From: Azoarcus sp.
GTDB taxonomy: Bacteria > Pseudomonadota > Gammaproteobacteria > Burkholderiales > Rhodocyclaceae
Length of the DNA: 44,089 nt
Direction of reading: 5' to 3'
Assembly: GCA_030656215.1 (NCBI GenBank)
Contig: JAUSOD010000065.1
Span: 1 to 44,089, forward strand
The position numbers and the translations under genes are program-made. The notes beneath the pieces are model-generated. The model searched no databases. It worked only from the letters and a program-made list of their open reading frames with translations, and was not told the DNA's origin. This document shows, one piece after another, positions 4,915 to 44,089 of the stretch. Numbering within the stretch: position 1 is the first letter of the stretch; each line of letters opens with the position of its first letter.

Positions 4915-4915
4915 A

Positions 4916-5467
4916 ATGACACTCGCACCGCCCTTCATCGCATTCCTGAGCTGGCCACAGCGCTGGCTGCTATTGGCCGTGCTGCTCGGGGTGGCTGCGC
5001 TCGTCATGTTCGGGCGCCTCGGGCCGCTGGATCAACTCCTCAAGGCACGCGAACCGGGTGGCATCTTTGCCCTTGAGTTCGCCTGGACCGGCAGGCGGGC
5101 AACAGAAATCCTTATCGCCTGGCAGGGGCTGGAGGAGGTGGTGCGCCTGCAGACGTGGTGGGACTACCTGTTTCTGCTGTGCTACCCACTCGGCCTCGCG
5201 CTCGCCTGCGCCATGCTCGCCGATGCACCACACAACCCGGTTCCCCTGATCGGGGCGTTTGTTGCCTGGGCGGTGCTGGCGGCGGCACCGCTGGATGCGA
5301 TCGAGAATCTGGGGATGTTGCTGATGGTTGAATACGGAGCGAGCGAGGCGTTGGCCAAGCTGACGACCTGGTGCGCGGGGCTCAAGTTCACGCTGCTGCT
5401 TGCCGCGGTGGGCTATCTGCTCACGGCAGGGGCGGCAACGTTCGTTCAGCGAGTGCTGCAGCCCTGA
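4916..5467 (+). CDS. Small integral membrane protein of unknown function
   Basis: This 183-residue protein starts one base after the stop of the c-di-GMP enzyme, so it is probably co-transcribed with it. It has about four hydrophobic helices (near residues 15-35, 75-100, 110-135 and 150-175). I recognise no catalytic motif. A longer in-frame ORF begins at 4718, but that part lies entirely inside the upstream gene, so the ATG at 4916 is the sensible start. The only functional hint is its position in the FecR/CHASE2 unit. Confidence 0.75.
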   Translation: MTLAPPFIAFLSWPQRWLLLAVLLGVAALVMFGRLGPLDQLLKAREPGGIFALEFAWTGRRATEILIAWQGLEEVVRLQTWWDYLFLLCYPLGLALACAMLADAPHNPVPLIGAFVAWAVLAAAPLDAIENLGMLLMVEYGASEALAKLTTWCAGLKFTLLLAAVGYLLTAGAATFVQRVLQP

Positions 5468-5655
5468 ACGAGATCCCCTGTGTCGCGCCAACGCCGTGTG
5501 GGCGAGCGCGCAAGTATTTCCATGGATGCTGGCGTACTACCTCCAATGGCACATGCAAAGTCGGCTGAAGGCGGTGTTCGCCGACTGAGCGCACTGGACA
5601 AGCGCCTTGCTTAGGGGTGAAATAAGCCTTTTGCCATAGATAATAAAAGGGCGCC

Positions 5656-6768: not shown

Positions 6769-6790
6769 TGTAAAAAGAAGGCGAGGAATC

Positions 6791-6823
6791 GCGAGCTCAG
6801 GCGTCAAGCGCACCTGAGCTCGC
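6791..6823. terminator. Perfect inverted repeat between convergent genes
   Basis: GCGAGCTCAGG at 6791-6801 and CCTGAGCTCGC at 6813-6823 form a perfect 11-bp stem with an 11-base loop. It lies between ppk2 (plus) and the metal-efflux operon (minus). No T-run follows on either strand, so it may be a factor-assisted or bidirectional stop rather than a classical intrinsic terminator. Confidence 0.45.
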
Positions 6824-6900
6824 AGACCACACAGCAGAAGGCGTAAGCAGGGGTATTCAACGAACCGGCGGAAAAGCTCGAGCTCCGCGCTTACTTTTGG

Positions 6901-7275
6901 CTATTTGACGGCAAACCGCACCGTAATCGACTTTTGTTCGGCCGTCTTCAGGTTGGCCACCACCTTGCTGCCCTTGTTCAGTTTTACGCCTTTGGCCTCG
7001 AGCTTGTCGCCTGCAACCACCAGCGGCGCCTCGGTTTTTTCCGAACCATTGAGGATGGTCAGCTTGCCGCTCATGCCCGTGGGTGACAGCGGTTGCCCGT
7101 GATCTTCGACATAAATCGTGGCCCCTTCCTGTCCGGGCACCAGTTCGAATGACAGGTCACTGGCAAGCTGGACGATGCCGCCATGTTTGGCCACCGCATC
7201 GCCGTGGGCCAGCGCCGGGCCAGCACCTGCCGTGGCAAGGGTGATCATGGCGACAAGTGCATATCTCTTCAGCAT
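6901..7275 (-). CDS. Small periplasmic protein of the metal-efflux operon
   Basis: A 124-residue protein with a signal peptide (about 1-23, ending ALA|HGD). The mature N-terminus carries two histidines next to glycines (HGDAVAKHGG), a plausible metal-binding start. The rest is a beta-rich domain with no catalytic motif. It is the last gene of a minus-strand operon, 54 bases after the RND pump, so a periplasmic metal-binding or accessory role is inferred from context. I do not recognise a named family. Confidence 0.75.
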   Translation of the reverse strand: MLKRYALVAMITLATAGAGPALAHGDAVAKHGGIVQLASDLSFELVPGQEGATIYVEDHGQPLSPTGMSGKLTILNGSEKTEAPLVVAGDKLEAKGVKLNKGSKVVANLKTAEQKSITVRFAVK

Positions 7276-10300: not shown

Positions 10301-10464
10301 CCACCAGCTTCGGTGAGTATGGTGATCACCGGCTTGTTGAGGTCGGGGAAGACATCGACCGGCGTGCGCCAGGCGGTCAGCGCCCCGTAGGCCATCAGCA
10401 GGGCGGCGACGGCGAGCACGAACAGCCGGTTGTGCAGGCTGTAGCGAACGATCCAGTTGAACAT
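7330..10464 (-). CDS. Heavy-metal-type RND efflux pump (CusA/CzcA family)
   Basis: A 1044-residue inner-membrane proton-driven exporter of RND size. It has an N-terminal membrane helix (about 10-30), two large periplasmic porter regions (about 40-335 and 560-860) and clusters of membrane helices. The helix-4 motif [16 protein letters not shown] (near 400-415) has the paired acidic residues used for proton relay in the heavy-metal branch. In the second porter region the sequence [15 protein letters not shown] replaces the methionine-rich surroundings of the CusA copper site, so copper or silver specificity should not be assumed. The start lies 12 bases after the adaptor gene. The pump works with the adaptor and the TolC-like channel encoded just upstream. 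Confidence 0.93.
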
Positions 10465-10476
10465 GCGTGGCCCCGT

Positions 10477-11607
10477 TCAGCGGATCTGCGCGACCAGGGC
10501 AGCGCCCTCGGTCACCACGCGGTTGTCGGCACCCAGGCCGTGGGTGATCACCACCCGCGCTGCGTCGAGCGTACGGAACTGAACCGGCTGCGGAATGAAG
10601 CGGTGGGCGCCGGACTTGATCCAGACGATGGGCTCGTTGGCCGGATTGCGCACCACCGCCTGTGCCGGCAGCACGATGCCCTTGATCTCGTCGTTGAGGC
10701 GGACGACCAGGCTGACTGGCTGGCCGACGGCGAGCGGCAGGCGTTCGCTGCCGGTCACCGAAAAGCGCAGCGGCAATCGCCCCTCGCGCAGTGCCGCGCC
10801 GACACCGACCAGCGCCAGTTGCGCCGTGCCCGCTTCCTTCAGCGCGGCACCGGCAATGCGCCCGGCCAATGCCGGGTCGGCGATGCGGGCCTCGACCATC
10901 AGCCGCTGTGGGTCAATGATCTCGAACAGGAGGTCGCGCGGTTCGACGACCTGGCCCACGATCACGTCGGCCCGGGCGACGACGCCAGCGACCGGTGCGC
11001 GCAGCGCCTCACGGGCACCAATGCCGGCGCCGATGCTGCGTTCCTGCTCAACCAGCGCCTGGGCTTCGGCCCGTGCGGCGTCGATGTCCTTGCGTGCCAC
11101 CGAGCCTTCCAGCCCGGCCAGCCGTGTTGCCCGTTGCTCGGCAACCAGACGGCGGGCGCGCACTTCGGCCAGTTGCGCCTGCTGACCGGCGAGCGCGTAG
11201 GGATCACCCTCGTAGCGCACATACGCAAGCACCTCACCGCGCTGCACCGTTTTGCCGATGCTCGCCAGTCCCTGATTGCCAGCCTCGACGCGTCCACCGT
11301 GGATGGTCTGGACAAGGCCGCCGGCATTCGGATCGACGATCACCACTGCCGGCAGCTCCAGCGTCGCTGCAGCCTCGCCGTCCATCGACAGTTCGGTGCG
11401 GATGTTCATCCGCCGCTGCGCCGCCTTGGGAATGGTCACGCTACCGTCCGGCAAGCGGGCCAAGCCGGAGGCATTGACCGCGCTGCCGGGGGCGTCGAGA
11501 TGTTCGCCGTTCGGGCCGTGGGCGCCGGGCGCAGCCTGGGCGGTAGACAGCGTCAGCAGACAGAGCAGGCCGACGAGGCGTTGGCGTGTCGTTTGTGCGG
11601 GGCTCAT
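10477..11607 (-). CDS. RND periplasmic adaptor (HlyD/CusB type)
   Basis: This 376-residue membrane-fusion protein links the pump to the outer-membrane channel. It has a signal peptide (about 1-25), then a mature start containing AHGPNGEHLDAP. A lipoyl/barrel-sandwich half (VVIVDPNAGGLVQTIHGGRV...) follows, then a helical hairpin (about 135-190) and beta-barrel and membrane-proximal domains. The start at 11607 is chosen because it overlaps the upstream stop (ATGA) and begins directly before the signal peptide. A longer in-frame start at 11703 adds Arg-rich sequence that reads as out-of-frame translation of the neighbour. The His-containing mature N-terminus is nearly identical to that of the upstream protein. 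Confidence 0.9.
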   Translation of the reverse strand: MSPAQTTRQRLVGLLCLLTLSTAQAAPGAHGPNGEHLDAPGSAVNASGLARLPDGSVTIPKAAQRRMNIRTELSMDGEAAATLELPAVVIVDPNAGGLVQTIHGGRVEAGNQGLASIGKTVQRGEVLAYVRYEGDPYALAGQQAQLAEVRARRLVAEQRATRLAGLEGSVARKDIDAARAEAQALVEQERSIGAGIGAREALRAPVAGVVARADVIVGQVVEPRDLLFEIIDPQRLMVEARIADPALAGRIAGAALKEAGTAQLALVGVGAALREGRLPLRFSVTGSERLPLAVGQPVSLVVRLNDEIKGIVLPAQAVVRNPANEPIVWIKSGAHRFIPQPVQFRTLDAARVVITHGLGADNRVVTEGAALVAQIR

Positions 11608-12197
11608 TGATGGGCTCCGGCTTCCATCCGCGGTTGCCGGCGGCGCAGCGCGACGATGATCAGGCCGGTGGCGAGCAGGCCGCCGACGCCCCAGGCTGCC
11701 CATTCCAGACCATGGCCGTGATCGTGCCCGTTTCCGGCGTCAGCACTGCGCGTATCAAGGGTGCCGTTGAGCAGGTCGGCGTCGTCGCCCGCCAGGATCG
11801 TGAACACCAGCGGATGTTCGCCGGCTTCGCTAAGCGCCTTGAGGAAGTCGGGGGATTCCAGCAGATAGTGCCCCTCAGCCGCCTGGTAGGCAGCCAGCCC
11901 CTTGAAATTGCCCGATTCGACCTCGACCGAGGCATCGACCACCGGCTCATTGCTGACATAGCGGTCCACGTAGATGCGTAACTGCCCATTTTTCAACTCG
12001 GCGACCAGTTCAAACAGGTCGGAACTGGCCTCCATGCGCGGCAGCATGGGGCCGCCGACGGCACTGGTCGGGGCGTCGAGGTGTTCGCCGTTGGGGCCGT
12101 GGGCGCCGGGGCCGGCGGCCAGCGGCAGGGCAAGGGCCAGCGCCAGGGCAGCCAGGCAGCCGCGCAGCGCGGGCGGTTGGAAGAAGCTTGGGTTCAT
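11604..12197 (-). CDS. Membrane-anchored accessory protein of the metal-efflux operon
   Basis: A 197-residue protein with a signal peptide (about 1-28). The mature start contains AHGPNGEHLDAP, the same block found in the adaptor. A beta-rich domain spans about 50-140. A His-rich linker GNGHDHGHG precedes one C-terminal membrane helix (about 160-183) and a short basic tail. The topology suggests a periplasmic domain tethered to the inner membrane. Overlaps at both ends (ATGA with each neighbour) place it firmly in the operon. I infer metal capture or adaptor assistance. No enzyme motif is visible. Confidence 0.8.
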   Translation of the reverse strand: MNPSFFQPPALRGCLAALALALALPLAAGPGAHGPNGEHLDAPTSAVGGPMLPRMEASSDLFELVAELKNGQLRIYVDRYVSNEPVVDASVEVESGNFKGLAAYQAAEGHYLLESPDFLKALSEAGEHPLVFTILAGDDADLLNGTLDTRSADAGNGHDHGHGLEWAAWGVGGLLATGLIIVALRRRQPRMEAGAHQ

Positions 12198-13408
12198 GGG
12201 TGTTGTCCCAGGGATTGCAGTAATTGGGCGCGCGCCAAGCCAAGCAGGGCCTGCTGGCGGGCGGCGTTCGCATCGGCCGCGCTGGCTGCCTCCAGCGCGC
12301 GCAAGAGTTCGGGTAAGGCCAGTTCACCTGCGCCGAAGGCGCGTTCGAGCAGCGTGCTGCGCTCGCGTAGCAGGCGAGCCTGTTCGCTGGCGGATGCCGC
12401 TTGTGCGTCGGCAACACCCAGGGCGTCGCGGGCATTGGCGATGCTGGCCGCGACCTGTTCCCGCTGCCGCTGCTCGCGCGTGCGGGCCACGTCGGCTGCC
12501 GCTTCTGCGCGGGCCAGCAGCGGCTTGTTGCGATCGTCGGTGCCAAAGGGCAGGCGCACGCCAAGCACTACGCTCTCTTCGCCAGAGGCACCATGGCCGC
12601 CAATGTCGCGCCGCCAGCCGATGGTCAGCTCCGGTGGCGCGCCGCGCGAGGTGCGAGCCAGATCGAGCTGGCGTGCGGCGCTTTCCGCTTCGCCGGCCGC
12701 TTCCTGCAAGGCGGGGTGATCGTCGCCGATGGTGACATCGGCGGGAACGGTTTCGGCCAGGGCTGCGGTTTGTGGATGATGGTCAAGTCCGGTCAAGGTG
12801 CGCCACTGCAGCGCGGCTTCGCGCAGTTGCAGGTCGGCGCTGGCCAACCGGTTGCGGGCGGCGAGTTCCTCGGCCTGCGCGGCCAGCAGATCGGTGCGCG
12901 GCAGCTCACCCGCGTCCACCCTGCGGCGGACGTCGGCGGCGAGCTGCGTCAGGCTGCTGGCGGCGGTGGCCATCTGCACCGCTTCGGCCTGCAGCGCGGC
13001 CAGCCGCCAGGCGCTTTCGCGCACTTCGCCTGCCAGTCGCCAACGGGCTGCGCGTTGCGACGCGTCGGCCCGCGCCAGCCCGGCGGCGGCGGCCTGGCCA
13101 TGGGCGTTGCGCTGCCCGGGTAACCACAGCGGCAGGCTCAGGTCCACGCCCGTCTCACGCTTGCCGAAATCGGTGTGCCAGCGGTCGTCGCGGTGGCTGA
13201 GGGCGATGGAGGGCGATTCTGCCCACCAGCGCCCGGCGCTGTCGGAGACGGCCTCGGCCGCGCGCAGCTCGCCGATCGCCACGCGCGCCACGGCGGCGCG
13301 TTGCCAGGCCGCATCCAAGGCGCTTGCCAGCGTGCCCCCGGCCCGCGCCGGGAGCGCGAGCAGGCCGACGATAAACAAGCAGCCCAGTTTGATACGTGTT
13401 CGATTCAT
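12194..13408 (-). CDS. TolC-family outer-membrane efflux protein
   Basis: This 404-residue protein has a signal peptide (about 1-24, ending ARA|GG) followed by the long heptad-patterned, Ala-rich helices of an outer-membrane efflux channel in two repeats (about 25-210 and 220-400). It is the first gene of the minus-strand efflux operon and should form the exit duct for the RND pump. The start at 13408 is preferred. The in-frame extension to 13468 is His/Thr/Ser-rich and would displace the signal peptide. Its stop overlaps the next start (ATGA). About 315 bases separate it from the divergent katG. That region holds both promoters but no clear gene. Confidence 0.9.
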   Translation of the reverse strand: MNRTRIKLGCLFIVGLLALPARAGGTLASALDAAWQRAAVARVAIGELRAAEAVSDSAGRWWAESPSIALSHRDDRWHTDFGKRETGVDLSLPLWLPGQRNAHGQAAAAGLARADASQRAARWRLAGEVRESAWRLAALQAEAVQMATAASSLTQLAADVRRRVDAGELPRTDLLAAQAEELAARNRLASADLQLREAALQWRTLTGLDHHPQTAALAETVPADVTIGDDHPALQEAAGEAESAARQLDLARTSRGAPPELTIGWRRDIGGHGASGEESVVLGVRLPFGTDDRNKPLLARAEAAADVARTREQRQREQVAASIANARDALGVADAQAASASEQARLLRERSTLLERAFGAGELALPELLRALEAASAADANAARQQALLGLARAQLLQSLGQHP

Positions 13409-13663
13409 GCAGTGATTTCCATCAGAGGAGGCTGTCGTGCTGTGCGTCCGGTGCCACCGGTGCAGCATTGCAGGCGTTCACCGTCAAAGCGCTGACCGGG
13501 TGATTACATTCCTGTCAGCTTTCTCGTGCGAGCACGAGCTTGGCGATGAAGTTTTCCTATGATCCCGATTACATCGTATTGACCGGCACGGCGGCACAAA
13601 ATGGCGCTTTCAGGCCTATAGTAGAAACAGCTGATGCTTTTCATGAGCCCGCCAGCATACTGA

Positions 13664-23175: not shown

Positions 23176-24507
23176 ATGCTTGAGAATTCATATAGTCCCG
23201 AGCGTAGAAAACTCTTAACTAGCGGAATAGCATTCGGTGTTGGCGCAGCAGTCGGTACGCTGTTTTCAACGGCCTCGGTGTCTCAGCCAAGCATCCCGAC
23301 ACGCGAGTCGATCGAACGGATCGATGCTATAAAGTTGTCCAAGATCGAGGCTGCGATCCAAGAAATGATGGACCGTTCGGATAAAGATAAAAAAGACCCA
23401 AGAGGTTGGCTCGCAAACGCTGAGCCTCACAACGCTTTCTGTGCCGCAACTGATTCAAGAGGCTTCAGCCAGATTCATTTTTGTTATTGGTTTCTTCCTT
23501 GGCACCGGGCCTATTTAGCTATTACCGAACGAAAAATTCGGGAGATCGCTGGCGATGCAAGTTTGGCATTCCCCTACTGGAATTGGTCAATAGATCGAAG
23601 AATACCTACGCGCTTTTCGACAATGGGTAGTTCACTTTCTAAAGCCGTCCGATTCACGCCCGACAGAGAACTGGAATCTGGCGAGGTCGACTATATCGAC
23701 TCCGATTCGGTTCTTCGTAAGCTTGGAGTAGCAGCACTCGCCGCGAGGAAATTTGTTGCAACGCCGTTCACAGACCGTATCGCACTGGCGCGAGAGCTAC
23801 GGGGTAGCTTTGGTGGACTTGCACGTCCAAATGCCCTCGAGCGATATGGTAATAGCCGAATCGAAGGTACTCCGCACGGCCCAGTGCATGTTTACGTCGG
23901 CGGAGTTGACGATGTAACTGGCCGTTTTGGCGATATGACCGATTTCGCCACGGCTGGACGCGATCCAATATTTTTTTCACACCATGGAAATATTGATAGG
24001 CTTTGGGAAAATTGGCGATCCAATCCGAGTCAAAGGGCTGCAGAACCCAACGATAGAGACTTTCTGGAGCACAAGTTTGTATTTCCATGGCTTGACGGTT
24101 CATCGATAGAAGTCGCCTGCTCGGAAACCCTAGATACTACAAAGCTTGGATATACATATGATTCACTTGAGGTAGTTGGTGCCACAGGAGGGGGCTCATT
24201 AGTCAAAGAAGGCGTTATTGAAAGGAAGAGGCTCCCTGCCGTTGTCGATTCAATAGTGAACGTGCCTGCGACACCGGAGGCATTCGCGAAAACATCGCGC
24301 TACGTACTGATAATCTCAGGCGTGGAGTCACCAGGCCGTCCGATGTCGGCAGGCGTCTACGTTGCCCCCCGGGGGCAGATGATTCGCAAAGTATTTTGGT
24401 TGGCAGTATTTCGGTTATGCGCAGTGGCGCTGTCTATGCATTCCCGAGCGATGTATTGTATTTTGACGTTACGGCGGCAGTTTCAGCACTTGGAACGCAA
24501 CATTTAG
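23176..24507 (+). CDS. Tyrosinase / polyphenol oxidase-like copper enzyme, C-terminus frameshifted
   Basis: A type-3 copper oxidase that would hydroxylate or oxidise phenols outside the cytoplasm. A Tat-like signal ERRKLLTSGIAFGVG lies at about 9-23. CuA ligands His85, His101 and His110 fit the spacing H-x3-C...H-x8-H of plant-type catechol oxidases, with Cys89 in the position that forms a thioether to the middle His. CuB has His234 and His238 (TPHGPVHVYVGG) and His269/His270 (FFSHHGNIDRLW). A C-terminal domain like that of plant enzymes begins near residue 325 (LGYTYDSL). After VYVAPR the frame reads unrelated sequence to the stop at 24507. The true C-terminus continues in another frame (see the next entry). 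The composition is AT-richer than in neighbouring regions. Confidence 0.85.
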   Translation: MLENSYSPERRKLLTSGIAFGVGAAVGTLFSTASVSQPSIPTRESIERIDAIKLSKIEAAIQEMMDRSDKDKKDPRGWLANAEPHNAFCAATDSRGFSQIHFCYWFLPWHRAYLAITERKIREIAGDASLAFPYWNWSIDRRIPTRFSTMGSSLSKAVRFTPDRELESGEVDYIDSDSVLRKLGVAALAARKFVATPFTDRIALARELRGSFGGLARPNALERYGNSRIEGTPHGPVHVYVGGVDDVTGRFGDMTDFATAGRDPIFFSHHGNIDRLWENWRSNPSQRAAEPNDRDFLEHKFVFPWLDGSSIEVACSETLDTTKLGYTYDSLEVVGATGGGSLVKEGVIERKRLPAVVDSIVNVPATPEAFAKTSRYVLIISGVESPGRPMSAGVYVAPRGQMIRKVFWLAVFRLCAVALSMHSRAMYCILTLRRQFQHLERNI

Positions 24508-24676: not shown

Positions 24677-26014
24677 ATGAAAATCACTCAAGGGAGAGTT
24701 TGCCACAGTGGGGCAGCACTTGGACTGAGCAGCCTACTGGCTCTTACGTTAGTTGCCCCTGCTGCGCACTCTCAGGATTTCGGTGTTATCCTGCGCAACG
24801 GCATGGTAAATGCAAATGCGGTGGTGCGGGCTGCCGCGGACGAAGTTAGGAGACGGAACGAGCCTTCTCCGCCTGCTCTACCAGGGCAGCCACTCCCCGC
24901 TTCTGACGGTGATTCGGCCACCCAGGCGACAACAGTAGCTCCCGCTGCGTTAGCACTGACACTCGAGCGCCAGTCCCCAGAGCAACGACAGGCGCTTCTC
25001 GCAGCGATTGATCGCGAAGTCACACAATTGCAGCTTGAGTTGGCAAAGCGTAATGCAATCTTAGAAAAATCGGCCGCCATCCATCTAGAAATTTCCGGCA
25101 TTAATGACGCAATTACCGCAAAGCAGCAAGCACGCGAGTTTGCTGCAGGAGAAATTGGGAACGTCAGCTTGGCTGCTGCAGAGTCGTTTGCAGCACTATT
25201 AAATCCATACTTTCTCATGTGCAAGGATGAACTGTGGGCGCCGAAGGATCCCATCAGGTGGATTGACAAGCTTTCAAATAGAAAACAGCAGCTTATTAGA
25301 TTTGGCCGAAGTGTTGGATTATTGACTTCAAATGATCGCCCGGCGGGCACTGGGTTTGTTGTCGGTCCAAACCACATTATAACCAACATGCATGTCATCA
25401 AAAGTATAGCGTCTTTTGATCCGGGGACGGAGGTGTGGACGATACGCCCTGGCTCTAAGATTACATTCGATCTCGAATATCCGCTTGGAGAGGATGCTCA
25501 TTGTGACGAACCGAACAAATCGAGATCTTATTTTCTGAATGCTGTCTTTGCTGTGCCAAAGGGCACTGACGATGATCTCGCCATTATATTGACATCCACA
25601 GATCCGCTATTTCCGCAGCCGCTAACGATGACCGAGAAGCCGGTTGCGAATTATGAGGGAAACATGGTTGTTGCAGTAATCGGTTATCCGGGCCCACCGG
25701 CCGATATGACTGTTGCTGAACAAATGGAGTTCTTCAGGACTCCAGATAAGATTTCGCCTCAATTTCCCTACAAGCGGCTTTCTAGTGGATTCACCGGCCC
25801 TGAGAAGGTCGGGAGCGATGGCTTTTTTATTCATAGGGCCAATACTTCAGGTGGTAACTCAGGTAGTCCGCTTTTCGACTTGGAGGATGGTTCAGTGGTT
25901 GGGATACATGTCGAAGGCTTCAATCGCCGCCAGGAGACTCTCGGATATAATCGCGCGTTGACCGCAAACAGGATAATAAAATTATTAAATGACTCCGGAT
26001 TGGCAGGAAGGTAA
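24677..26014 (+). CDS. Exported trypsin-like serine protease
   Basis: A 445-residue protein with a signal peptide (about 1-32, ending AHS|QD). A Pro/Ala linker is followed by a long helical, probably coiled-coil segment (about 98-165). A chymotrypsin-fold protease domain spans about 205-440. The catalytic triad is His239 in IITNMHVIKS, Asp300 in TDDDLAIIL and Ser395 in TSGGNSGSPLF. No PDZ domain is present, unlike DegP. It follows the polyphenol oxidase on the same strand in the low-GC islet. Processing of the oxidase or of the first exported protein is an attractive inference, since many polyphenol oxidases are activated by removal of the C-terminal lid. Confidence 0.85.
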   Translation: MKITQGRVCHSGAALGLSSLLALTLVAPAAHSQDFGVILRNGMVNANAVVRAAADEVRRRNEPSPPALPGQPLPASDGDSATQATTVAPAALALTLERQSPEQRQALLAAIDREVTQLQLELAKRNAILEKSAAIHLEISGINDAITAKQQAREFAAGEIGNVSLAAAESFAALLNPYFLMCKDELWAPKDPIRWIDKLSNRKQQLIRFGRSVGLLTSNDRPAGTGFVVGPNHIITNMHVIKSIASFDPGTEVWTIRPGSKITFDLEYPLGEDAHCDEPNKSRSYFLNAVFAVPKGTDDDLAIILTSTDPLFPQPLTMTEKPVANYEGNMVVAVIGYPGPPADMTVAEQMEFFRTPDKISPQFPYKRLSSGFTGPEKVGSDGFFIHRANTSGGNSGSPLFDLEDGSVVGIHVEGFNRRQETLGYNRALTANRIIKLLNDSGLAGR

Positions 26015-29906: not shown

Positions 29907-30184
29907 ATGCAGTGCCCGAGATCCGCCCCGAGATGCAGCCCAGGGTGTCGCGCAAGTTCCGCCTGCAGTGGGAAGACGCCCAGCAGGCCTGGGTGTTGCT
30001 CTACCCCGAGGGCATGGTCAAGCTCAACCAGAGCGCGGGCGAGATCCTGAAGCGCTGCGACGGGGCGCATTCGGTGGATGAGTTGGTGGCTGACCTGGAG
30101 CGGACCTTCGGCACCACCGGCCTGCACGCTGACGTCATCGCTTTTCTCGCCATGGCGAGACAACAGCATTGGGTCGAGGTCTGA
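29903..30184 (+). CDS. pqqD: PQQ peptide chaperone PqqD
   Basis: A 93-residue protein that binds the PqqA peptide and presents it to PqqE. It shows the family pattern of winged-helix RiPP recognition proteins: [20 protein letters not shown], then [16 protein letters not shown], then [15 protein letters not shown]. The length is normal for free-standing PqqD. It overlaps pqqC (ATGA) and is followed after 1 base by pqqE. Confidence 0.97.
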
Positions 30185-30185
30185 C

Positions 30186-31364
30186 ATGAACGCACCTGCT
30201 CCGGTGACCGCACAGCCTGGCCCACCCCTCTGGCTGCTGGCCGAGCTCACCTATCGCTGTCCGCTGCACTGCGTGTTCTGCTACAACCCGGTCGATTTCG
30301 CGCATACCCCGGACGAGCTCTCCACCGACGAATGGCTGCGCGTACTGCGCGAAGCGCGGGCGGCGGGCAGCGTGCAGTGTGGTTTTTCCGGCGGCGAGCC
30401 GCTGCTGCGCGACGATCTCGAGGTGCTGGTGGCGGAGGCGCATCGGCTGGGCTTCTACACCAATCTGCTGACTTCCGGCGTCGGGCTCACCGCGACGCGT
30501 GCCGCCGCGCTGAAGCAGGCGGGGCTGGACCACATCCAGCTCTCGTTCCAGGATTCGACCCGCGAGCTCAACGATTTCCTGTCCCATACCCGCACCTTCG
30601 ATCTGAAGCAGCGAGTGGCGGCCATCATCAAGGACAACGACTGGCCGATGGTGATGAACTGCGTGATCCACCGGCTCAATATTGACTACATCGGCGAGAT
30701 TATCGACATGGCGGTGGCGCTCGATGCCGAGTATCTCGAGCTCGCCAACAGCCAGTACTACTCCTGGGCCATGCTCAACCGCGACCAGCTGCTGCCGTCG
30801 CGCGAGCAGATCGAACGCGCCGAACGCATCACCAACGAGCGGCGCGAGCGCTACGGCGATCGCATCCGGATCTTCTTCGTGGTGCCCGACTACTACGAGA
30901 ACCGCCCCAAGAAGTGCATGAACGGCTGGGGCAATGTGTTCCTTACCATTACCCCGGATGGCACCGCCTTGCCCTGTCATACGGCGCGAATGTTGCCGGG
31001 GCTGAACTTCCCCAACGTGCGCGACATGGACGTGAAGCGCATCTGGTTCGAGTCCGAAGGCTTCAACCGTTACCGCGGCCATGGCTGGATGAAGGAGCCG
31101 TGCCAGAGCTGTCCGGAGAAGGAAAAGGATCACGGTGGTTGCCGCTGCCAGGCGTACATGCTGACCGGTGATGCGGCCGCGGCCGACCCGGTGTGCGACA
31201 AGTCGCCACGCCACGACGTGGTGATGGCGGCAGTGGCGCGTGCGCAGAGTGACGAAGTCGTCGTCCGTGATATACCGTTGGTGTTCCGAACGCCCGAGGA
31301 GTCGCGCCGCAGGCCGGTGCTGGCAATTGCACCGTCTGCGGATCCCGCGCACGAGCCCAGGTAG
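30186..31364 (+). CDS. pqqE: PqqA peptide cyclase PqqE (radical SAM)
   Basis: A 392-residue radical SAM enzyme that makes the carbon-carbon bond between Glu and Tyr of PqqA. The cluster-binding CPLHCVFC (Cys25, Cys29, Cys32) is intact, as is the SAM-binding GFSGGEPLLRDD. The C-terminal SPASM region has the expected cysteines (PKKCMNGWGN, ALPCHTARM, EPCQSCPEKEKDHGGCRC). It closes the pqqABCDE order. No pqqF-type protease follows, although the proline iminopeptidase lies on the other side of pqqA. Confidence 0.97.
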   Translation: MNAPAPVTAQPGPPLWLLAELTYRCPLHCVFCYNPVDFAHTPDELSTDEWLRVLREARAAGSVQCGFSGGEPLLRDDLEVLVAEAHRLGFYTNLLTSGVGLTATRAAALKQAGLDHIQLSFQDSTRELNDFLSHTRTFDLKQRVAAIIKDNDWPMVMNCVIHRLNIDYIGEIIDMAVALDAEYLELANSQYYSWAMLNRDQLLPSREQIERAERITNERRERYGDRIRIFFVVPDYYENRPKKCMNGWGNVFLTITPDGTALPCHTARMLPGLNFPNVRDMDVKRIWFESEGFNRYRGHGWMKEPCQSCPEKEKDHGGCRCQAYMLTGDAAAADPVCDKSPRHDVVMAAVARAQSDEVVVRDIPLVFRTPEESRRRPVLAIAPSADPAHEPR

Positions 31365-37274: not shown

Positions 37275-38090
37275 ATGAAACTGCGCCATGCGCTCCTCGC
37301 CCTGCAGGCCGTCACCAGTCGCGAAGTGGCCAAGTTCGTCCGTCAGGGCGGTCGCCTGGCCTCGGCGCTGGTGCGTCCGCTGCTGTGGCTGGTGGTGTTT
37401 GCCGCCGGCTTCCAGAATGTGTTCGGGGTGTCGATCATCCCGCCCTACGACACCTACATCCCGTACCAGACCTATATCGTGCCCGGCCTGCTCGGCATGG
37501 TGCTGCTGTTCAACGGCATGCAGTCGTCGCTGGCGATGGTGTACGACCGTGAGATGGGGGTGATGAGGCTGCTTCTCACCGCGCCGCTGCCGCGTTCCTA
37601 TCTGCTGTTTGCCAAGTTGCTCGCGGGCACGTTGCTGTCGGTGTTGCAGGCCTACGTGTTTCTCGCCATCGCAGCGCTGTTCGACGTGGGGGTGCCGTGG
37701 TCGGGCTGGCTGTATGCGCTGCCGGTGCTGGTGCTGTCGGGGATGATGCTGGGTGCGCTCGGGCTGCTGCTGTCGGTACATGTGAAGCAGCTGGAGAACT
37801 TTGCCGGCACGATGAACTTCGTCATCTTCCCGATGTTCTTTGTGTCGCCGGCGCTGTACCCGCTGTGGAAGCTCGAAGAGTCCGGCGCCACCGTGATCCA
37901 CTTCATCGCGACCTGGAACCCCTTCAGCCACGCAGTGGAGGCGACGCGCTTTGCTCTTTACGGGCAGTGGGCGCCGCAATCGCTGGCCATCGTCGTCGGT
38001 TGCCTGGCGGGGTTCTTCCTGCTTGCTGCATGGGGTTACGACCCGCAGCGCGGCATCGTCAAGCGTGCAGGGAAACCGGGCGGAGCCTGA
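37275..38090 (+). CDS. ABC-2 permease of the PQQ-linked system (PedC-like)
   Basis: A 271-residue inner-membrane protein with about six helices and the ABC-2 family signature region (YIVPGLLGMVLLFNGMQSSL then REMGVMRLLLTAPLPRSYLL). It partners the ATPase at 34160. ABC-2 permeases normally export. In the ped/exa type clusters the pair is found beside PQQ alcohol oxidation genes and its cargo is unknown. It ends the plus-strand unit that began at pqqA and is convergent with the lanthipeptide cluster, 80 bases away. Confidence 0.9.
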   Translation: MKLRHALLALQAVTSREVAKFVRQGGRLASALVRPLLWLVVFAAGFQNVFGVSIIPPYDTYIPYQTYIVPGLLGMVLLFNGMQSSLAMVYDREMGVMRLLLTAPLPRSYLLFAKLLAGTLLSVLQAYVFLAIAALFDVGVPWSGWLYALPVLVLSGMMLGALGLLLSVHVKQLENFAGTMNFVIFPMFFVSPALYPLWKLEESGATVIHFIATWNPFSHAVEATRFALYGQWAPQSLAIVVGCLAGFFLLAAWGYDPQRGIVKRAGKPGGA

Positions 38091-38170: not shown

Positions 38171-39868
38171 TTATCCGGCCAGCATCACCTCGCGCACGGC
38201 GAGCAGTGCCACCAGCAGTTTGTCTTGTCCGTTCCGCGCGAAGTGGTGGCCGAGCATGCTGAAATAACGAGCGACACCGGTGGACGTGCAGCTTGCCTCA
38301 AGCACGAAGGCCGCGATGCGATCGAGTTCGGCGCAGAAGTCCACAGGGGATTGCGCCGAGACCGATGCAAGGCAGCGCTCCGGCAATTGGTCGCGAATGG
38401 TCGCGGCCACCTGAGCGGCCATTGCCGGCATGCGCGAACCGGTATGCTGCTGCCCGCACAGTGCGTAGCCGTTCTTGATTACGTGTTCGGGGCGCAGGAT
38501 CTGCAAGAACGGCCGGCCCTGGCTCGTCATCAGGTTGGCCGCAGCCTGCCCTTCGATCACGCTGGGTAAATCGCTGTTCGTCACGCAATGATGGAACACG
38601 TCCATCGGTACCGACCCCAGTTCGACAAAGTGAACCGTGGGCGAGACCATCTCGCGGAGCGTCGAATCCAGATCGCCGCTGATGTCCATCCACTGCTTGG
38701 TGTTCGCGTCGTAGCCTCGGTGCACCCGGATGCAGGCGGTATCGGAGCGATCGTGGATCCATGCACCGAGTGTTCGAATCAGGGGGTCGAGCTTGGCGGT
38801 CGACAGGACACCTTCGCCGAACTCGCGCGTATGGCGGGCGGCCAGTGTGGTTCGCAGTGCAGGCAGATCGGTACTGCCCACGCCAAGATCGTCGGCAAGT
38901 GCGTCGATAAGACTCGCCCAGCCGGTCAGTTCTGCGTGGGGGCTACAGGAGCAGATCACGATTGACCGTGGCGCATCGCGCTGACAACGCAGCGCGGCAA
39001 GCACACAGACGAGGAACATCTCGGGCGCCGTGGCGGTGAAATGCTGCAGCCCGTACATCGTCCACAGCAATGGCGAGTCGACATCCTCCGCGCGCGTGCG
39101 ACCGCAGGCCGCCAGGATGGCCCGTGCATTCCGCGTGCGGCGAGCCAGGTCTTCGTCGAAGGTCTGGCCGTCGGCATACCAGTCCCAGATGACGGAATCC
39201 AGGACATAGGTTTCCGTCCGCGGGGGCTTGATTGGCAGGTCTTGAAACGCAGGGAAGGCGTCGACCATGTACAGATGACGTCCGTCGGGCTGTTCGACGC
39301 GTGAGCTTTCATAGTAGGAATCCGCCTTTTTCGACGGCGGATCGTCCCAGAGATAGGGTTGAATGCGGGCGAAGAAGCGCACGTTGAGCTGCAACGCATA
39401 GTTCGTCGACATGTCGTCGGCTCCGCCGGTGAAGCCGAAGGCGACCGCTTCGGTCAGTGCAGATCGGCATTCGTACGGTAGAAACCGGATGTTCCTGCAT
39501 GTGCCGTAGGCAGCAAATCCATCGGCCATCCGCGCGGGATCCAGGCCAGGAAACATCAGCGCCAGCTTTGCCGCCGTGTTTCCCAGCAGCGCACGGCCGT
39601 AATCGGCATAGAGGACCACGACGCAGCCGGTAAATGCGGTCAGTTCGATCAGGCGGCGCAGGATCATTACGGTTGAGGCCTGGTGCCCGAGATTGCGTGT
39701 GCCATCAACGAACACGCGCCATTCCGTCTGGTCGGCGAGAAGTGCGAGCATCTCGGCAAGCTCCGGCGTCATCTCATCGGCATCGAAGCCTTGGCGGTCC
39801 ACAAAAGCGAGCGCTGACCGTGCGAACTGCTCCGCGGCGAACTGCAGGGTGTTGTGCCTGTCATTCAT
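38171..39868 (-). CDS. Protein of unknown function in the lanthipeptide cluster
   Basis: A 565-residue, probably cytoplasmic protein with no signal peptide or membrane helix. The start at 39868 overlaps the dioxygenase gene by 8 bases. A frame open to 39991 lies inside that gene. The N-terminal half has a Rossmann-like start (WRVFVDGTRNLGHQASTVMI then FTGCVVVLYADYG). The C-terminal half contains HFVELGSVPMDVFHHCVTNS then DLPSVIEGQAAANLMTSQGR. The two-lobe look and the late acidic/Gly loop recall GT-B glycosyltransferases, but this is weak pattern recognition and I cannot name a family. As the last gene of the operon it is a candidate tailoring enzyme for the peptide. Confidence 0.75.
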   Translation of the reverse strand: MNDRHNTLQFAAEQFARSALAFVDRQGFDADEMTPELAEMLALLADQTEWRVFVDGTRNLGHQASTVMILRRLIELTAFTGCVVVLYADYGRALLGNTAAKLALMFPGLDPARMADGFAAYGTCRNIRFLPYECRSALTEAVAFGFTGGADDMSTNYALQLNVRFFARIQPYLWDDPPSKKADSYYESSRVEQPDGRHLYMVDAFPAFQDLPIKPPRTETYVLDSVIWDWYADGQTFDEDLARRTRNARAILAACGRTRAEDVDSPLLWTMYGLQHFTATAPEMFLVCVLAALRCQRDAPRSIVICSCSPHAELTGWASLIDALADDLGVGSTDLPALRTTLAARHTREFGEGVLSTAKLDPLIRTLGAWIHDRSDTACIRVHRGYDANTKQWMDISGDLDSTLREMVSPTVHFVELGSVPMDVFHHCVTNSDLPSVIEGQAAANLMTSQGRPFLQILRPEHVIKNGYALCGQQHTGSRMPAMAAQVAATIRDQLPERCLASVSAQSPVDFCAELDRIAAFVLEASCTSTGVARYFSMLGHHFARNGQDKLLVALLAVREVMLAG

Positions 39869-40775
39869 GGCTGGCGCGAATCCCGCTAGTCGCACCATCA
39901 GGCGAGCGCAGGCAGCGGAAGCCCGGATGGCGAAAAAGTGTTCCAGCGGGCTGGCGCGCCATCGCCACCATCGGATCGCCGCTGCCGTCATCGGTCGTCA
40001 ATCGGTCGATCTCGTGCACACCGGACTCCGGTCGGGGCATGCAGACCGTGTCATCCCCGAAGAAACGCAAGGAAATCGTTCGTCGTTGTTCGCCAGCACG
40101 TGTCGGCGCGCCGCCATGCAGCACCGCCGGATGGAACACCACGATATCCCCTGGCTCGATCGCCGTGGACACGATCGGCCACGCATCGCGCCGGGCCTCG
40201 ATGTCGGGCAGGGCCGGCCACACCCCCGGGGCGTACATCGCGGCAGTGGGGTCGTCGGGATCAAATGCCGTGGGGTTGTAAAGCAGCCCGCGATGCGAGC
40301 CGCGCACGAATTCCAGCGAACGCTCGCGCTCGACCGGGTCGAGATTGATCCAGGCGGTCGCGACTTGTTCTCCCGCCATCGGCACATAGGCCAGATCCTG
40401 GTGCCAAGGCGTACGAAGCGTGCGCCCCCGCTTCAGCCAAATCTGCTCGTAGAGCAGCCAGAGCCCCTGGCTGCCGATCAGATTGCCAACCAACTCGGTG
40501 AGGCCGGTCTCGCACAGCAGATCGTGGTACGCAGGAAATGCAGCCGGGTTGGCATGATCCTGATAGAACGCGCCGGCAATGCCAGCCAGCACTGTATGAG
40601 CGCGGGGACCCGGGTGCTGGAGTGACCAGTGAAAGGCCCGTTGCGCGTGGCGCATGGCGTGGGTGTCGAGCGCCCCGCGAATGACGACCACGCCTTCGTC
40701 GGCCAGTGTCGTGCGCCATTCGTGAAGTTGCGAGGGTTCCGTCAGGGTAGACGGCAACTTCTGGTCTGGTGTCAT
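39861..40775 (-). CDS. Phytanoyl-CoA-dioxygenase-like Fe(II)/2-oxoglutarate oxygenase
   Basis: A 304-residue enzyme of the PhyH fold, which hydroxylates its substrate using iron and 2-oxoglutarate. The iron ligands are His125 and Asp127 in TPWHQDLAYV and His220 in VFHPAVLHGG. Arg231/Arg232 in EQRRTISLRFFGDD would hold 2-oxoglutarate. All key residues are therefore present. It begins 9 bases after the lanthionine synthetase stop and overlaps the next gene, so it probably hydroxylates the cluster's peptide, by analogy with oxygenases in other RiPP pathways. A separate small-molecule substrate cannot be excluded. Confidence 0.9.
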   Translation of the reverse strand: MTPDQKLPSTLTEPSQLHEWRTTLADEGVVVIRGALDTHAMRHAQRAFHWSLQHPGPRAHTVLAGIAGAFYQDHANPAAFPAYHDLLCETGLTELVGNLIGSQGLWLLYEQIWLKRGRTLRTPWHQDLAYVPMAGEQVATAWINLDPVERERSLEFVRGSHRGLLYNPTAFDPDDPTAAMYAPGVWPALPDIEARRDAWPIVSTAIEPGDIVVFHPAVLHGGAPTRAGEQRRTISLRFFGDDTVCMPRPESGVHEIDRLTTDDGSGDPMVAMARQPAGTLFRHPGFRCLRSPDGATSGIRASHE

Positions 40776-40784
40776 GGGAATCGC

Positions 40785-43442
40785 TCACCAACGGCGCCGC
40801 ATGCCGCTCCCCGGAGCGGATTCCGGCGGCCGGGCGCAATCAGCTAGCCAGGGCGACGAAAGCAGTGGGTGGCAGACCCCGGCGGAGTGCATCGCGAGTG
40901 CGCTCGCGGGACCCAGGAAGCCGATCCAGAGGTCGGGGGTGACAATATCCCGATCGTCCGATGTCCAGGTGCAGCTTTCATTCACCTTCAGATGCATCAG
41001 TCGCAGCGCGCGTGCCACCTTGCCCGAACGCGCCCTGGCAAGGGACTGAAACCGTGGCACAGCCCCGAGCATATGCCATAGCTCGAGCTGTCCGGCCAGG
41101 CCGTGACAGTAAGTTGGCGTACCCACCGACATCGCGTCGGCCAGCACGCCCACGGCCCAGTCGACCTCGTCGTGCAAGCCAGGATCGTCACCCAGTCCGA
41201 CCAGGAGAGCCCACAGATAGCCAGCTACACCATGACACCAGTTGCCGATCGCATGATGCCGGGACTCCTGGGGGCCAATGCGCAGGGCTGCCCCGTCGGC
41301 AGTTCGGGCATGGCGCGCGAGGCTACGGAAGGTGTCGCGGGCCTGGTCGGTGGATGCGACATCGCCACAAGTGCGGCCCCAACAGGCAAGTGCCATTGCG
41401 ATGCCTGCCGAACCATGCGCACAGCCGAAATGAGTCGTGTCTGAACCGGTACCCCAGACCGGCACCATGGACGCGTTTGTTGCGTGCTTGTCGAGGTGGG
41501 AGACGACATCGCGCACTGCATCGATGGGCCAGTCCGCGGCCACGAGTTCGTGGAGCATACAGGCCGCCCACACCACGCCGGCACCCCCTGAAAATAGGTC
41601 GAGTTCTCGGCGATCGGCGGCCGCTGCCTCAAAACGCACCCGCGCCGCCATCAGATATCCACCGTTGCTCAGATGCAGCCCCGCAACCGCCAGCGCGAGT
41701 GCCACCCCCGCGTTACCGGTGAACAGGCCGGCTGCCTTTCCTGCGGCAGAACGTGTTGAAAGCCAGCGTGCACCCAGATCGATCGCATCGTAATGGTCGT
41801 TGCGCCCCAGGGCGCGATCAACGCTCCGCAGGCCGAGCATGATGCCTGCGGCTCCGATGTTGATTGCTTCGCAGTCGAAAGGGCGCATGAAGTGCTCGTT
41901 GCGCCAGCACGCGCCATGATCGCATGGGTGCATGAACGACCCGGCCAGCCTGGCCGCATCGCTGCTTGCCCGCCGGTACCAGCGCAGTTCGGCGTCCGTG
42001 CTAGGACTTCCGGCCGAGGCTGTGATCGTGCGCCAGTCGCCGACGCGCTCATGCAAGGTGGCTGCCGCGGCGCGGGCAGCCGGTCGGCGTTCGGGTACAG
42101 GGGCAAGCCATGATGCAATTCGGTTCGCAATGTCAGCGGCCTCCTCGTTGCGAAGCATGGCGGCCATCCGCCCCGGGCCGGCGGGAAACAGTCCGGGTGG
42201 AAAGTCCAGCACAGCCTGAACGACGCACCCCGCCAATGCGAACACATCACGCGAAGCGTCGGCGTCATGGGTATCGTCCTGTGCTTCGGGGGCGAGGTAG
42301 CCCAGCGTGCCGCAGGGACGCATCGGATCGCCGACCGGCGCTGCCAGCTCGAAGTCGATCAGCCCGACGCCCCTGTGCCGGCGAACGGCATTCTCCAGCT
42401 TGATATCGCCATGCACGAATCCCGCCTCGTGGACACGGGCAAGCGTATCGCCGAGTAGCGGCAAACAGTCGATACGCGCGCACCGCGGCAACTCGCTCAC
42501 GGGCTCACCGCGAAAGTCCTCGGCGACGAGGGCCGGCCAGTCACCATCATGCCATGTCAGTGCCCTCGGTGCGGTGTCTGGCCACGCCTGCAGCGACCGT
42601 AGAATGGCAAACTCGGTCCGGAGCAGATTACGAATGCTGCCTCCCCTCGTGTCGCTAGCGACACCATGTCGCCCGGCCTTGATGACGACGGTGTCGAGCG
42701 TGGAGACATCGGCGGCGAGAAAGGTGCGCGCCCGCGGCGTCTCGCCAAGCACGGTCAGTGGAATGTATTCGGACGCGCCGAGCCACACCGGCTCGTCGAG
42801 CCGGATCCAGTGTGCGGTGGGCGGGTAGCCGGGTACGGGTGGAAGAGGCGCCCATGGTGGTTGCTCTCCATTCGTCGATCGAACATCGGCGCACACTGCG
42901 CCGTTCCCGGCTACGAGCGCAAAATCGTGAATGCCGGTGCTGCCGATGACTTCGGTTTCAGCGTGGAATACTCCGTAGCGGAACGAAACCGCGGAGCCCG
43001 GCCGCACATGAAGATCGGACTGCACTTCGGGTCCCTGGCTTGCGGGCCATACTCGATCGAGTTGAGCGATGGCCTCGCAGGCAGCCTGGTCGTCGAAGGG
43101 GTAGAGCGTCAGCACCTTGCCGAGTTGCGTCATACCCGTATCGCCCGAGTTGAGGAACACTATGTCGCGGATACGGCGTGGGACTTTGAATGGTATTCGC
43201 AGCCGTGCCAGAACGTCCGCCAACATCTCCAGGAAGGCGGGCGATTCGTGCGGCGCAGCGCTGACGTGGATTTTCCAGCCTTGGGCAACCGATGGCGCAT
43301 GTGTGAGCCGATAAAAGCGCCAGCCTAAAGAACGGTCGGTCCAGTCGGTAACAGTCCAGTCGCACCCGAGACTGGATTCCAGATAATCAAGCGCGGCACA
43401 GTAGGCCTGCGCCGCGTCCGTCGCCACAATGGCGGTGCTCAC
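40785..43442 (-). CDS. Class III/IV-type lanthionine synthetase (LanKC/LanL), zinc site retained
   Basis: An 885-residue three-domain enzyme that phosphorylates Ser/Thr in a precursor peptide, eliminates phosphate and closes thioether rings. The N-terminal lyase part (about 1-215) has QGWKIHVSA (54-62) and the FLNSG block followed by GKVLTLYP (about 96-115). The kinase part (about 220-470) has Lys255, HGDIKLEN (His344, Asp346, Asn351) and DFE at 363-365. The LanC-like cyclase (about 490-870) has His676 in CAHGSAG and the zinc ligands Cys736 (NWCHG) and Cys779-His780 (YCHG). Class III enzymes lack this zinc site, so class IV is the closer match. GTG start, 9 bases after the precursor stop. Rare outside actinobacteria. 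Confidence 0.93.
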   Translation of the reverse strand: MSTAIVATDAAQAYCAALDYLESSLGCDWTVTDWTDRSLGWRFYRLTHAPSVAQGWKIHVSAAPHESPAFLEMLADVLARLRIPFKVPRRIRDIVFLNSGDTGMTQLGKVLTLYPFDDQAACEAIAQLDRVWPASQGPEVQSDLHVRPGSAVSFRYGVFHAETEVIGSTGIHDFALVAGNGAVCADVRSTNGEQPPWAPLPPVPGYPPTAHWIRLDEPVWLGASEYIPLTVLGETPRARTFLAADVSTLDTVVIKAGRHGVASDTRGGSIRNLLRTEFAILRSLQAWPDTAPRALTWHDGDWPALVAEDFRGEPVSELPRCARIDCLPLLGDTLARVHEAGFVHGDIKLENAVRRHRGVGLIDFELAAPVGDPMRPCGTLGYLAPEAQDDTHDADASRDVFALAGCVVQAVLDFPPGLFPAGPGRMAAMLRNEEAADIANRIASWLAPVPERRPAARAAAATLHERVGDWRTITASAGSPSTDAELRWYRRASSDAARLAGSFMHPCDHGACWRNEHFMRPFDCEAINIGAAGIMLGLRSVDRALGRNDHYDAIDLGARWLSTRSAAGKAAGLFTGNAGVALALAVAGLHLSNGGYLMAARVRFEAAAADRRELDLFSGGAGVVWAACMLHELVAADWPIDAVRDVVSHLDKHATNASMVPVWGTGSDTTHFGCAHGSAGIAMALACWGRTCGDVASTDQARDTFRSLARHARTADGAALRIGPQESRHHAIGNWCHGVAGYLWALLVGLGDDPGLHDEVDWAVGVLADAMSVGTPTYCHGLAGQLELWHMLGAVPRFQSLARARSGKVARALRLMHLKVNESCTWTSDDRDIVTPDLWIGFLGPASALAMHSAGVCHPLLSSPWLADCARPPESAPGSGMRRRW

Positions 43443-43451
43443 TCCCGGATG

Positions 43452-43655
43452 TCAGCCGTGACGTGTCGCTGCACAGGTCTGCCATGGGCACATGTGGACC
43501 GGGCCGCGGTGCACGTCCATGGCATTGGCTGGCATCGGTATCGACCCCGACCCGGTCAATGCTGCGACAACGTCCTCCCGGCGGTGTCCTTGCCGACGCG
43601 CTACTGCGCGCATATCGTCGACCTTCGCGCGCACAATTTCCCGAACTTGCTGCAT
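43452..43655 (-). CDS. Putative lanthipeptide precursor
   Basis: A 67-residue ORF with a near-ideal ribosome binding site, 9 bases upstream of the synthetase gene. Residues 1-33 are charged and helix-forming (MQQVREIVRAKVDDMRAVAR...), like a RiPP leader. The tail follows a TGSGSIPMPA stretch and ends GPVHMCPWQTCAATRHG. It has two Cys (56, 61) and dehydratable Thr34, Ser36, Ser38, Thr60 and Thr64. Rings could link Ser36/Ser38 to Cys56, or join Cys61 and Thr64. The class III Ser-x2-Ser-x3-Cys labionin pattern is absent. A longer frame to 43745 has no ribosome binding site. I know of no described relative. Confidence 0.75.
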   Translation of the reverse strand: MQQVREIVRAKVDDMRAVARRQGHRREDVVAALTGSGSIPMPANAMDVHRGPVHMCPWQTCAATRHG

Positions 43656-43661
43656 GTCGTA

Positions 43662-43670
43662 TCTCCTTTT
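43662..43670 (-). promoter_or_regulatory. Ribosome binding site of the precursor gene
   Basis: AAAAGGAGA on the minus strand ends 6 bases before the ATG at 43655-43653. It decides that start over the longer open frame reaching 43745 and is much stronger than the site of the synthetase gene, which fits the need for more peptide than enzyme. Confidence 0.8.
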
Positions 43671-43879
43671 CGAGGAACAGATGTTCTGGCGAGTCGACAG
43701 CGGTGTAGCGAAGATATGACGTTGACCACAATCGACCTCTTTCAACTTAGCATGCCGTGCTGAAGTTGCCAGGCGTCTTTACGGCGAGCAAGGTGCACCA
43801 TCGACCGTACGTACGGCCGTGGCCGTCGAGACAGAAGCGCGGGAGAGCGAGCCTAGCCTGCGCGGGAATCATCTGCCGC

Positions 43880-44089
43880 GGCGGCAGTCTGGAAAGGGTG
43901 GTGCATCTGGATGGGCGCAAGGCGCAGATGCGGGAGCACGCCCGCCTCAAGGCGCGGCAACTCGGCTTGAAGAAGCTCTTTCCCGGCTTCGAACCGATGC
44001 AGACAAGTCTGGGCGAAGCCAACGGCGAGGTGGATCTGCGTGGCACCGGCAACTCCATCGCTGCGCTGCTCGGCAGTGCCGACGGCGAG
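43880..44089 (+). pseudogene. AsmA-family fragment, 5' end missing, running off the right edge
   Basis: The frame starting near 43880 reads GGSLERVVHLDGRKAQMREH, then ARLKARQLGLKKLFPGFEPM, then GEANGEVDLRGTGNSIAALL and SADGE to the window end. This is the repeat-like C-terminal region of AsmA-family envelope proteins (D/N-G-x-[VI]-x-L-x-G-T-G-x-S-[IV]). Upstream of about 43880 the same frame (CAGIICR and earlier) no longer looks like AsmA. No plausible start or ribosome binding site precedes it, so the 5' part appears lost by recombination beside the lanthipeptide cluster. Confidence 0.65.

Follow-up and report, generated by a model that had tools for sequence, protein, structure and literature searches.

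A candidate class IV-type lanthipeptide pathway with a near-invariant core in Azoarcus sp. and three further genomes

What does a bacterium make with four adjoining genes for a small peptide, a synthetase that would modify it and two further enzymes, when no gene for exporting the product is recognised beside them? We address this question for a contig of Azoarcus sp. (assembly GCA_030656215.1, contig JAUSOD010000065.1), referred to here as the window, which is the complete contig of 44,089 bases from a genome of 5.08 Mb. Four minus-strand genes spanning 43655-38171 encode a precursor peptide, a lanthionine synthetase, a PhyH-type oxygenase and a protein that we call open reading frame (ORF) 3. 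We consider it rather probable that they form a horizontally spread class IV-type lanthipeptide pathway, one of the ribosomally synthesised and post-translationally modified peptide (RiPP) pathways, with a single nearly fixed product that is hydroxylated and probably glycosylated.

The grouping of the four genes is more than chance, because all four recur jointly in three further genomes. Searching plasmid records with ORF3 returned a single relative, which makes up the N-terminal region of a 4,096-residue protein on an Azospirillum plasmid (28% identity), and a two-row alignment of this protein with ORF3, scanned against 84,980 species genomes, gave 19 loci. Two of these hold the whole cluster: L024, on a 9.3-kb contig of a metagenome-assembled genome (MAG) of Acidobacteria, and L037, on a 35.6-kb contig of a Gimesia MAG. 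A fourth cluster, L060, was found with a three-synthetase profile in one (G1222) of 120 other sampled genomes of the host's family. Precursor, synthetase, oxygenase and ORF3 stand together in all four clusters, whose genomes appear to belong to three phyla. By tblastn, identity to the window in L024, L037 and L060 is 49%, 43% and 54% for the synthetase, 58%, 54% and 68% for the oxygenase, and 37%, 37% and 49% for ORF3. The original prediction had described a lanthipeptide-type pathway that has both a precursor of its own and a 2-oxoglutarate oxygenase, encoded on one strand with 9-base gaps or overlaps, and had proposed a search for the same gene set elsewhere. The coordinates bear out the layout (9 bases between precursor and synthetase, 9 between synthetase and oxygenase, an 8-base overlap of oxygenase and ORF3), and the search found the content conserved in all three further clusters, with a precursor ORF in the same place next to each homologous synthetase, as had been anticipated. 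That the precursor is a chance ORF is ruled out, since these homologous ORFs share its tail.

The precursor gene (43452..43655, minus strand) encodes 67 residues from an ATG at 43655, and direct reading places a ribosome-binding site, AAAGGAG, 7 bases 5' of this start (43663..43669, minus strand). Residues 1-53 form the leader and residues 54-67 the core, HMCPWQTCAATRHG, whose 14 codons (43455..43496, minus strand) end at the stop codon. The corresponding tails are HACPWHTCQATRHG in L060, HMCPWHTCQATRHG in L037 and HLCPWSTCQATRHG followed by SNK in L024, the precursor of which starts at TTG. Across the four genomes the consensus is HxCPWxTCxATRHG, with H54, C56, P57, W58, T60, C61, A63, T64, R65, H66 and G67 invariant in window numbering. 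Each of the six pairs shares 11-13 of 14 core residues, the opposite of the varied precursor tails that had been expected, whereas the leaders are identical at 8-21 of 51-54 aligned residues (15-41%). Depending on the pair, from 5 of 10 to 9 of 11 identical core residues (Met and Trp left out) are encoded by different codons. Because the residues match while so many codons differ, what is conserved in the core is its protein sequence and not its DNA, within a comparison of four sequences, which are few. We found no paper on these core motifs in the open-licence literature of PubMed Central (PMC), a scope that holds for all our literature searches and leaves most subscription papers outside.

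Lanthipeptide precursors commonly diversify, and the near-invariant core speaks against a quickly diversifying bacteriocin. From this constancy we infer a fixed function, such as that of a cofactor, signal or metal ligand. An ordinary lanthipeptide bacteriocin, with its exporter, protease and immunity genes elsewhere and its core alike through recent spread, is an unlikely alternative: the patchy and mobile-looking cluster would suit it, and class III has precedents for leader proteases encoded away from the cluster, according to the available part of one source (PMC10604976). The divergence tells against recent spread, since the synthetases differ by 46-58% and the leaders by 59-85%, and 5-9 synonymous changes separate the codons of cores whose residues stayed fixed; nor did we recognise, in the available flanks of the four clusters, any gene dedicated to export or immunity. 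The same holds for a dedicated protease, in flanks of which not every ORF was scanned. In the window, as originally predicted, there is no transporter, protease or other peptidase gene within the minus-strand operon. Contig ends cut the window and L024, and in the window genes upstream of the precursor could be missing because the contig ends 434 bases past the precursor start. Returning to the fixed product that we favour, the near-constant core, the lack of recognised exporter, protease and immunity genes and the patchy spread suggest that the product is portable and serves one set role, perhaps inside the cell.

The synthetase (40785..43442, minus strand; 885 residues, GTG start) carries lyase, kinase and cyclase domains in this order on one chain, with Pfam matches to RamC_N (117.8 bits), Pkinase (39 bits) and LANC_like (78.4 bits) that all exceed the cut-off. 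Judged by its sequence, it is class IV-type. The residues expected of an active lyase (K57, H59, K86, D143, R155), kinase (K255, D346, N351, D363) and zinc-type cyclase (D615, H676, C736, C779, H780) are present in all four synthetases, and NCBIfam models score each higher as class IV than as class III: 342 against 226 bits in the window, 298 against 216 in L060, 352 against 228 in L024 and 370 against 267 in L037. We write class IV-type and do not name the enzyme LanL, because its zinc-cyclase residues are complete but its score lies under the LanL cut-off of 650 bits (NF038150). Likeness to LanL thus extends to domain order and all examined active-site residues, including the cyclase Asp, His, Cys and Cys-His; the sub-cut-off scores, a separate place in the tree and a different tailoring set are where the two differ.

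Solved structures fit this placement. The best relative, 8car/8cav, which we take to be the class IV enzyme CuvL, aligns across all three domains, lyase to cyclase (E 7e-50; profile positions 50-795), and the lyase residues line up with those in 8sao/8sap, presumably ThurKC. Mutants of K65, H67, K94, D152 and R163 of ThurKC impair or stop dehydration, and in NisC the zinc ligands (Cys, Cys, His) and the acid-base Asp and His have been assigned roles, both as given in the part of the source at hand (PMC10604976). The three-domain layout and the lyase residues are shared with class III LanKC enzymes (8sao/8sap; SalKC, 9ugq), whose cyclases are without the zinc ligands that the cluster synthetases have. 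The three-domain lanthionine synthetase of the original prediction therefore stands in its architecture, whereas class III is ruled out by the zinc-type cyclase residues in all four clusters. The enzymes of Haematobacter, Streptomyces and Kitasatospora are 22-27% identical to the cluster synthetases; the first two also have complete lyase, kinase and zinc-cyclase residues, and in the third a Cys replaces the last His. A Deinococcus LanKC and the class III-like L055 and L056 (phylum of G515) are without the cyclase set. An unrooted tree of ten sequences, six of them comparison enzymes forming a small set chosen from plasmid and genome matches, sets the four cluster synthetases apart with support of 100. 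In the accessible text of a 2020 survey, most LanKC and LanL enzymes are placed in Actinobacteria and Firmicutes, lanthipeptide clusters can include genes for P450s, 2-oxoglutarate oxygenases and glycosyltransferases, and no secondary modification of class IV lanthipeptides had been reported by then (PMC7268733). No paper on class IV lanthipeptides of planctomycetes was found. A defence system was considered and rejected; PADLOC matches the kinase part of the synthetase only (24-42 bits).

What, then, would the synthetase make of the core? It would bind the leader and phosphorylate the invariant T60 and T64, and elimination of the phosphates would leave dehydrobutyrines, to which the zinc-type cyclase would add the invariant C56 and C61. 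The rings would run in reverse, with Cys N-terminal of dehydrobutyrine, as C56-T60 and C61-T64. This direction is the most likely because the only Thr before a Cys in the window core is the adjacent pair T60-C61, whose neighbouring residues cannot easily form a ring; the same pair is the only Thr or Ser preceding a Cys in L060 and L037, and in L024 there is Ser59 in addition. Peptides of the cinnamycin type offer a precedent for reverse rings. It is, to our minds, improbable that the Thr residues are dehydrated and the rings closed instead by His54 or His66, as a noursin-like histidinobutyrine, leaving the Cys residues free in a metal-binding peptide. Such a product would accord with the invariance of H, C and T in all four cores, with the difficulty of Thr-before-Cys rings in three of them (L024 having Ser59), and with noursin itself, made by LanKC-type enzymes, whose histidinobutyrine crosslink and copper binding are described in the portion available of PMC10206099. 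NorKC, however, has been described as a putative member of class III, whereas the zinc-type cyclase residues are intact in all four clusters, and no metal-transport gene was recognised beside them, in flanks scanned in part.

Lanthionine rings aside, the two further enzymes would tailor the peptide. The PhyH-type Fe(II)/2-oxoglutarate oxygenase (39861..40775, minus strand; 304 residues) matches PF05721 with 62.5 bits, above the Pfam cut-off, and would hydroxylate a core residue. Its H125, D127, H220 and R231, presumably the HxD, H and R of the active site, are invariant in the three aligned clusters and readable in the fourth. A P450 gene adjoins the cluster in L024, L037 and L060 (36-41% identity among the three) and would oxidise the product further where present. 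The window genome has two P450s on other contigs, which we do not count as orthologs because they reach 25-31% identity to the cluster P450s against 36-41% among the latter; in the window the P450 is absent or elsewhere, since a piece of an AsmA-like gene occupies the place that it has in L060. The compact cluster of the original prediction does comprise four genes, but four may be the minimum, given a P450 beside three of the four clusters. Removal of the leader would fall to an unlinked host peptidase. Other neighbours were noted in individual clusters: in L060, downstream of ORF3 (4127-7040), a TauD-type oxygenase and a 674-residue protein with no Pfam match lie inside the same IS66 pair (see below); L037 has a DMFA2_C (N,N-dimethylformamidase-like) protein between oxygenase and ORF3 (4678-7266), which none of the other clusters shows in its gene order; and L024 has an M48 peptidase with a zinc ribbon (8042-8776), divergent from and beyond the precursor, a possible leader peptidase there.

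ORF3 (38171..39868, minus strand) has 565 residues counted from the ATG at 39868, the longest listed reading giving 606, and matches no Pfam or NCBIfam family at E 0.1. Where the original prediction saw an unknown protein, an AlphaFold model built on a 20-row alignment (mean predicted local distance difference test score, pLDDT, 87; predicted template modelling score, pTM, 0.88) predicts a GT-B glycosyltransferase-like fold. Foldseek against the PDB ranks EarP of Pseudomonas aeruginosa first and second (6j7l, E 2.0e-5; 6j7j, E 4.3e-5; probability 1.00). EarP, a GT-B enzyme, rhamnosylates Arg32 of elongation factor P (EF-P), and replacing D13, D17 or E273 by alanine inactivates it, as stated in the part of PMC5615199 available to us. 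Five of six matches at E <=0.001 are glycosyltransferases (the two EarP entries, sucrose synthase, trehalose-6-phosphate synthase and glycogen synthase), the sixth being 8tz0_B, from an E1-E2-Ubl complex and no glycosyltransferase; lower matches are mostly O-GlcNAc transferase and further GT-B enzymes. The model makes a GT-B-type enzyme likely. It is probable that ORF3 acts on the precursor peptide, because the two are linked in all four clusters, whereas action on Arg65 is speculative. ORF3 resembles EarP (GT104) in its predicted fold and first two Foldseek matches, and differs in length (about 380 residues in EarP) and in the lack of a sequence-profile match. The host's true EarP is a separate gene (L068, 503 bits), and EarP was not found in G1222, G515 or G516.

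We regard it as somewhat unlikely that ORF3 is no peptide glycosyltransferase but a different enzyme of GT-B or Rossmann type, or else a binding domain. Its relatives are the N-terminal domains of giant proteins of at least 3,300 residues, in unrelated operons, at 11 of 11 loci examined, and it has no sequence match to EarP; yet EarP stands first in Foldseek, glycosyltransferases make up five of the six best matches (8tz0_B excepted), and GHQ and EGQ-type motifs are conserved in both halves of ORF3. These giant proteins occur in Bacteroidota, Azospirillum, other alphaproteobacteria and Methanosarcina. Besides L023, the loci examined are 10 of the 17 in the ORF3 scan that do not hold the cluster (L025, L027, L028, L032, L033, L035, L038, L039, L040 and L042), and at each an ORF of 900-1,260 residues lies directly upstream on the same strand, that of L035 being cut by a contig end.

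If ORF3 is a glycosyltransferase for the precursor, its target would be a side chain of the core. The invariant Arg65 may be that target; failing this, Trp58 or the newly introduced hydroxyl would be. A sugar on Trp58, or on the hydroxyl made by the oxygenase, in place of Arg65 is a serious possibility that we hold at less than even. Trp, Arg and His are all invariant in the cores, and the class III lanthipeptide NAI-112 has a deoxyhexose N-linked to Trp, going by the part of PMC10373908 at hand; on the other side, the nearest fold of ORF3 is that of an arginine enzyme, EarP. No arginine-glycosylated lanthipeptide was found in the literature searched. In the available parts of the descriptions of NAI-112, noursin and cinnamycin/duramycin (2-oxoglutarate-dependent hydroxylation), single tailoring steps resemble those proposed here and none is described with this gene set. 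The cores of these peptides differ from that of the cluster. The most specific version of our proposal, a fixed-sequence cofactor, metal ligand or internal signal with reverse rings and an invariant Arg glycosylated by an EarP-like enzyme, is a long shot.

How did so similar a core come to stand in genomes so unlike? The pathway is rare. Searches of the phylum of G516 (343 genomes), that of G515 (347), the family of G516 (130) and relatives of G1222 (128), sets that overlap, brought up no member beyond the one known in each; in the two phyla the next-best matches to the synthetase profile reach at most 157 bits over part of the profile, against more than 1,100 bits for members. In 369 genomes of the host's class, a single-protein search with the synthetase returned the window's own copy as the sole full-length match, the matches in 39 other genomes being short, mainly in the kinase, with E no better than 1e-6. 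With ORF3 as the sole query, nothing but its own copy came up in 369 genomes of the class and in 150 of the host's order, and the first genome scan gave no match. Plasmid residence was rejected, as none of 63 synthetase-matching plasmid records covers 80% and coverage is at most 46% among the 40 matches listed; so was phage residence, ORF3 having no match in phages and no relative in viral contigs. The core pattern had no match in viral contigs.

The cluster is patchy and looks mobile, and we infer horizontal spread of the pathway. A same-genus genome without the synthetase is 86% identical in DNA to the window, compared from 33644 up to 38091, and from there on not at all; the match stops at the end of a PedC-like gene, and ORF3 ends about 80 bases beyond. 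L060 is flanked by two IS66 transposase genes of 477 residues each, in opposite orientation. G+C content is 65.4% in the L060 cluster against 59-60% in its IS-bearing flanks and 50.2% against 40.0% in L037, while the window cluster, at 64.2% against 63.4% to its left, is not odd. An ORF of L037 (11330-12868), integrase-like by eye, has no Pfam match and is not used as evidence. Beside the window cluster, 43757-44089 (plus strand) holds the C-terminal piece of the AsmA-like gene, whose match begins partway along the profile (positions 481-551 of 607), as though the insertion had cut the gene short.

The PedC-like gene (37275-38090), next past ORF3 on the opposite strand, encodes an ABC permease of the pyrroloquinoline quinone (PQQ) alcohol-oxidation system, and a genome of the same genus that lacks the cluster has it as well. 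Among plasmids, Variovorax supplies the best DNA match to the PQQ genes of the host (66.8% over 65%), which is consistent with the betaproteobacterial host of the original prediction. A radical SAM/SPASM protein (30078-31364) lies near the PQQ-dependent alcohol oxidation genes. Elsewhere the window has genes for a trypsin-like peptidase (24677-26014) and, at 7330-13468, an RND pump; like the PedC-type permease, both may or may not have to do with the cluster. It also encodes a peroxidase-family protein (PF00141; 13664-15898) and a tyrosinase-domain protein (23176-24507).

Several points weigh against the pathway as we propose it. Its chemistry is deduced throughout, and the rings are predicted from spacing alone. 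The known clusters number only four, the assignment of L024 (on its 9.3-kb contig) and L037 to their phyla rests on MAG binning, and all four synthetases, at 298-370 bits, fall below the LanL cut-off. No ortholog of the P450 was recognised in the window's genome. For ORF3, the EarP matches come from a single model, with TM scores of 0.31-0.33 by query and 0.43-0.45 by target and a root-mean-square deviation of 12.0-12.7 A. The EarP family PF10093 does not match ORF3; a profile of 17 ORF3 relatives against 22 EarPs gives E 0.15, which does not bear out kinship by sequence; and 16 of 200 and 26 of 200 column shuffles reach the ORF3-EarP segment scores. Placed by eye, with no significant alignment, the EarP positions D13, D17 and E273 correspond to D55, N59 and E439/G440, so that the essential D17 would coincide with an Asn.

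That leaders and enzymes have diverged around an almost unchanged core suggests that the product has a defined target or acts in a cofactor-like way. The pathway would bring a GT-B-like family that has had no assignment into RiPP chemistry, and its short substrate, 14 residues in a setting of four genes, may serve for asking about peptide arginine glycosylation outside EF-P. Glycosylation of Arg65, if true and without an earlier case, would be the first arginine glycosylation of a RiPP.

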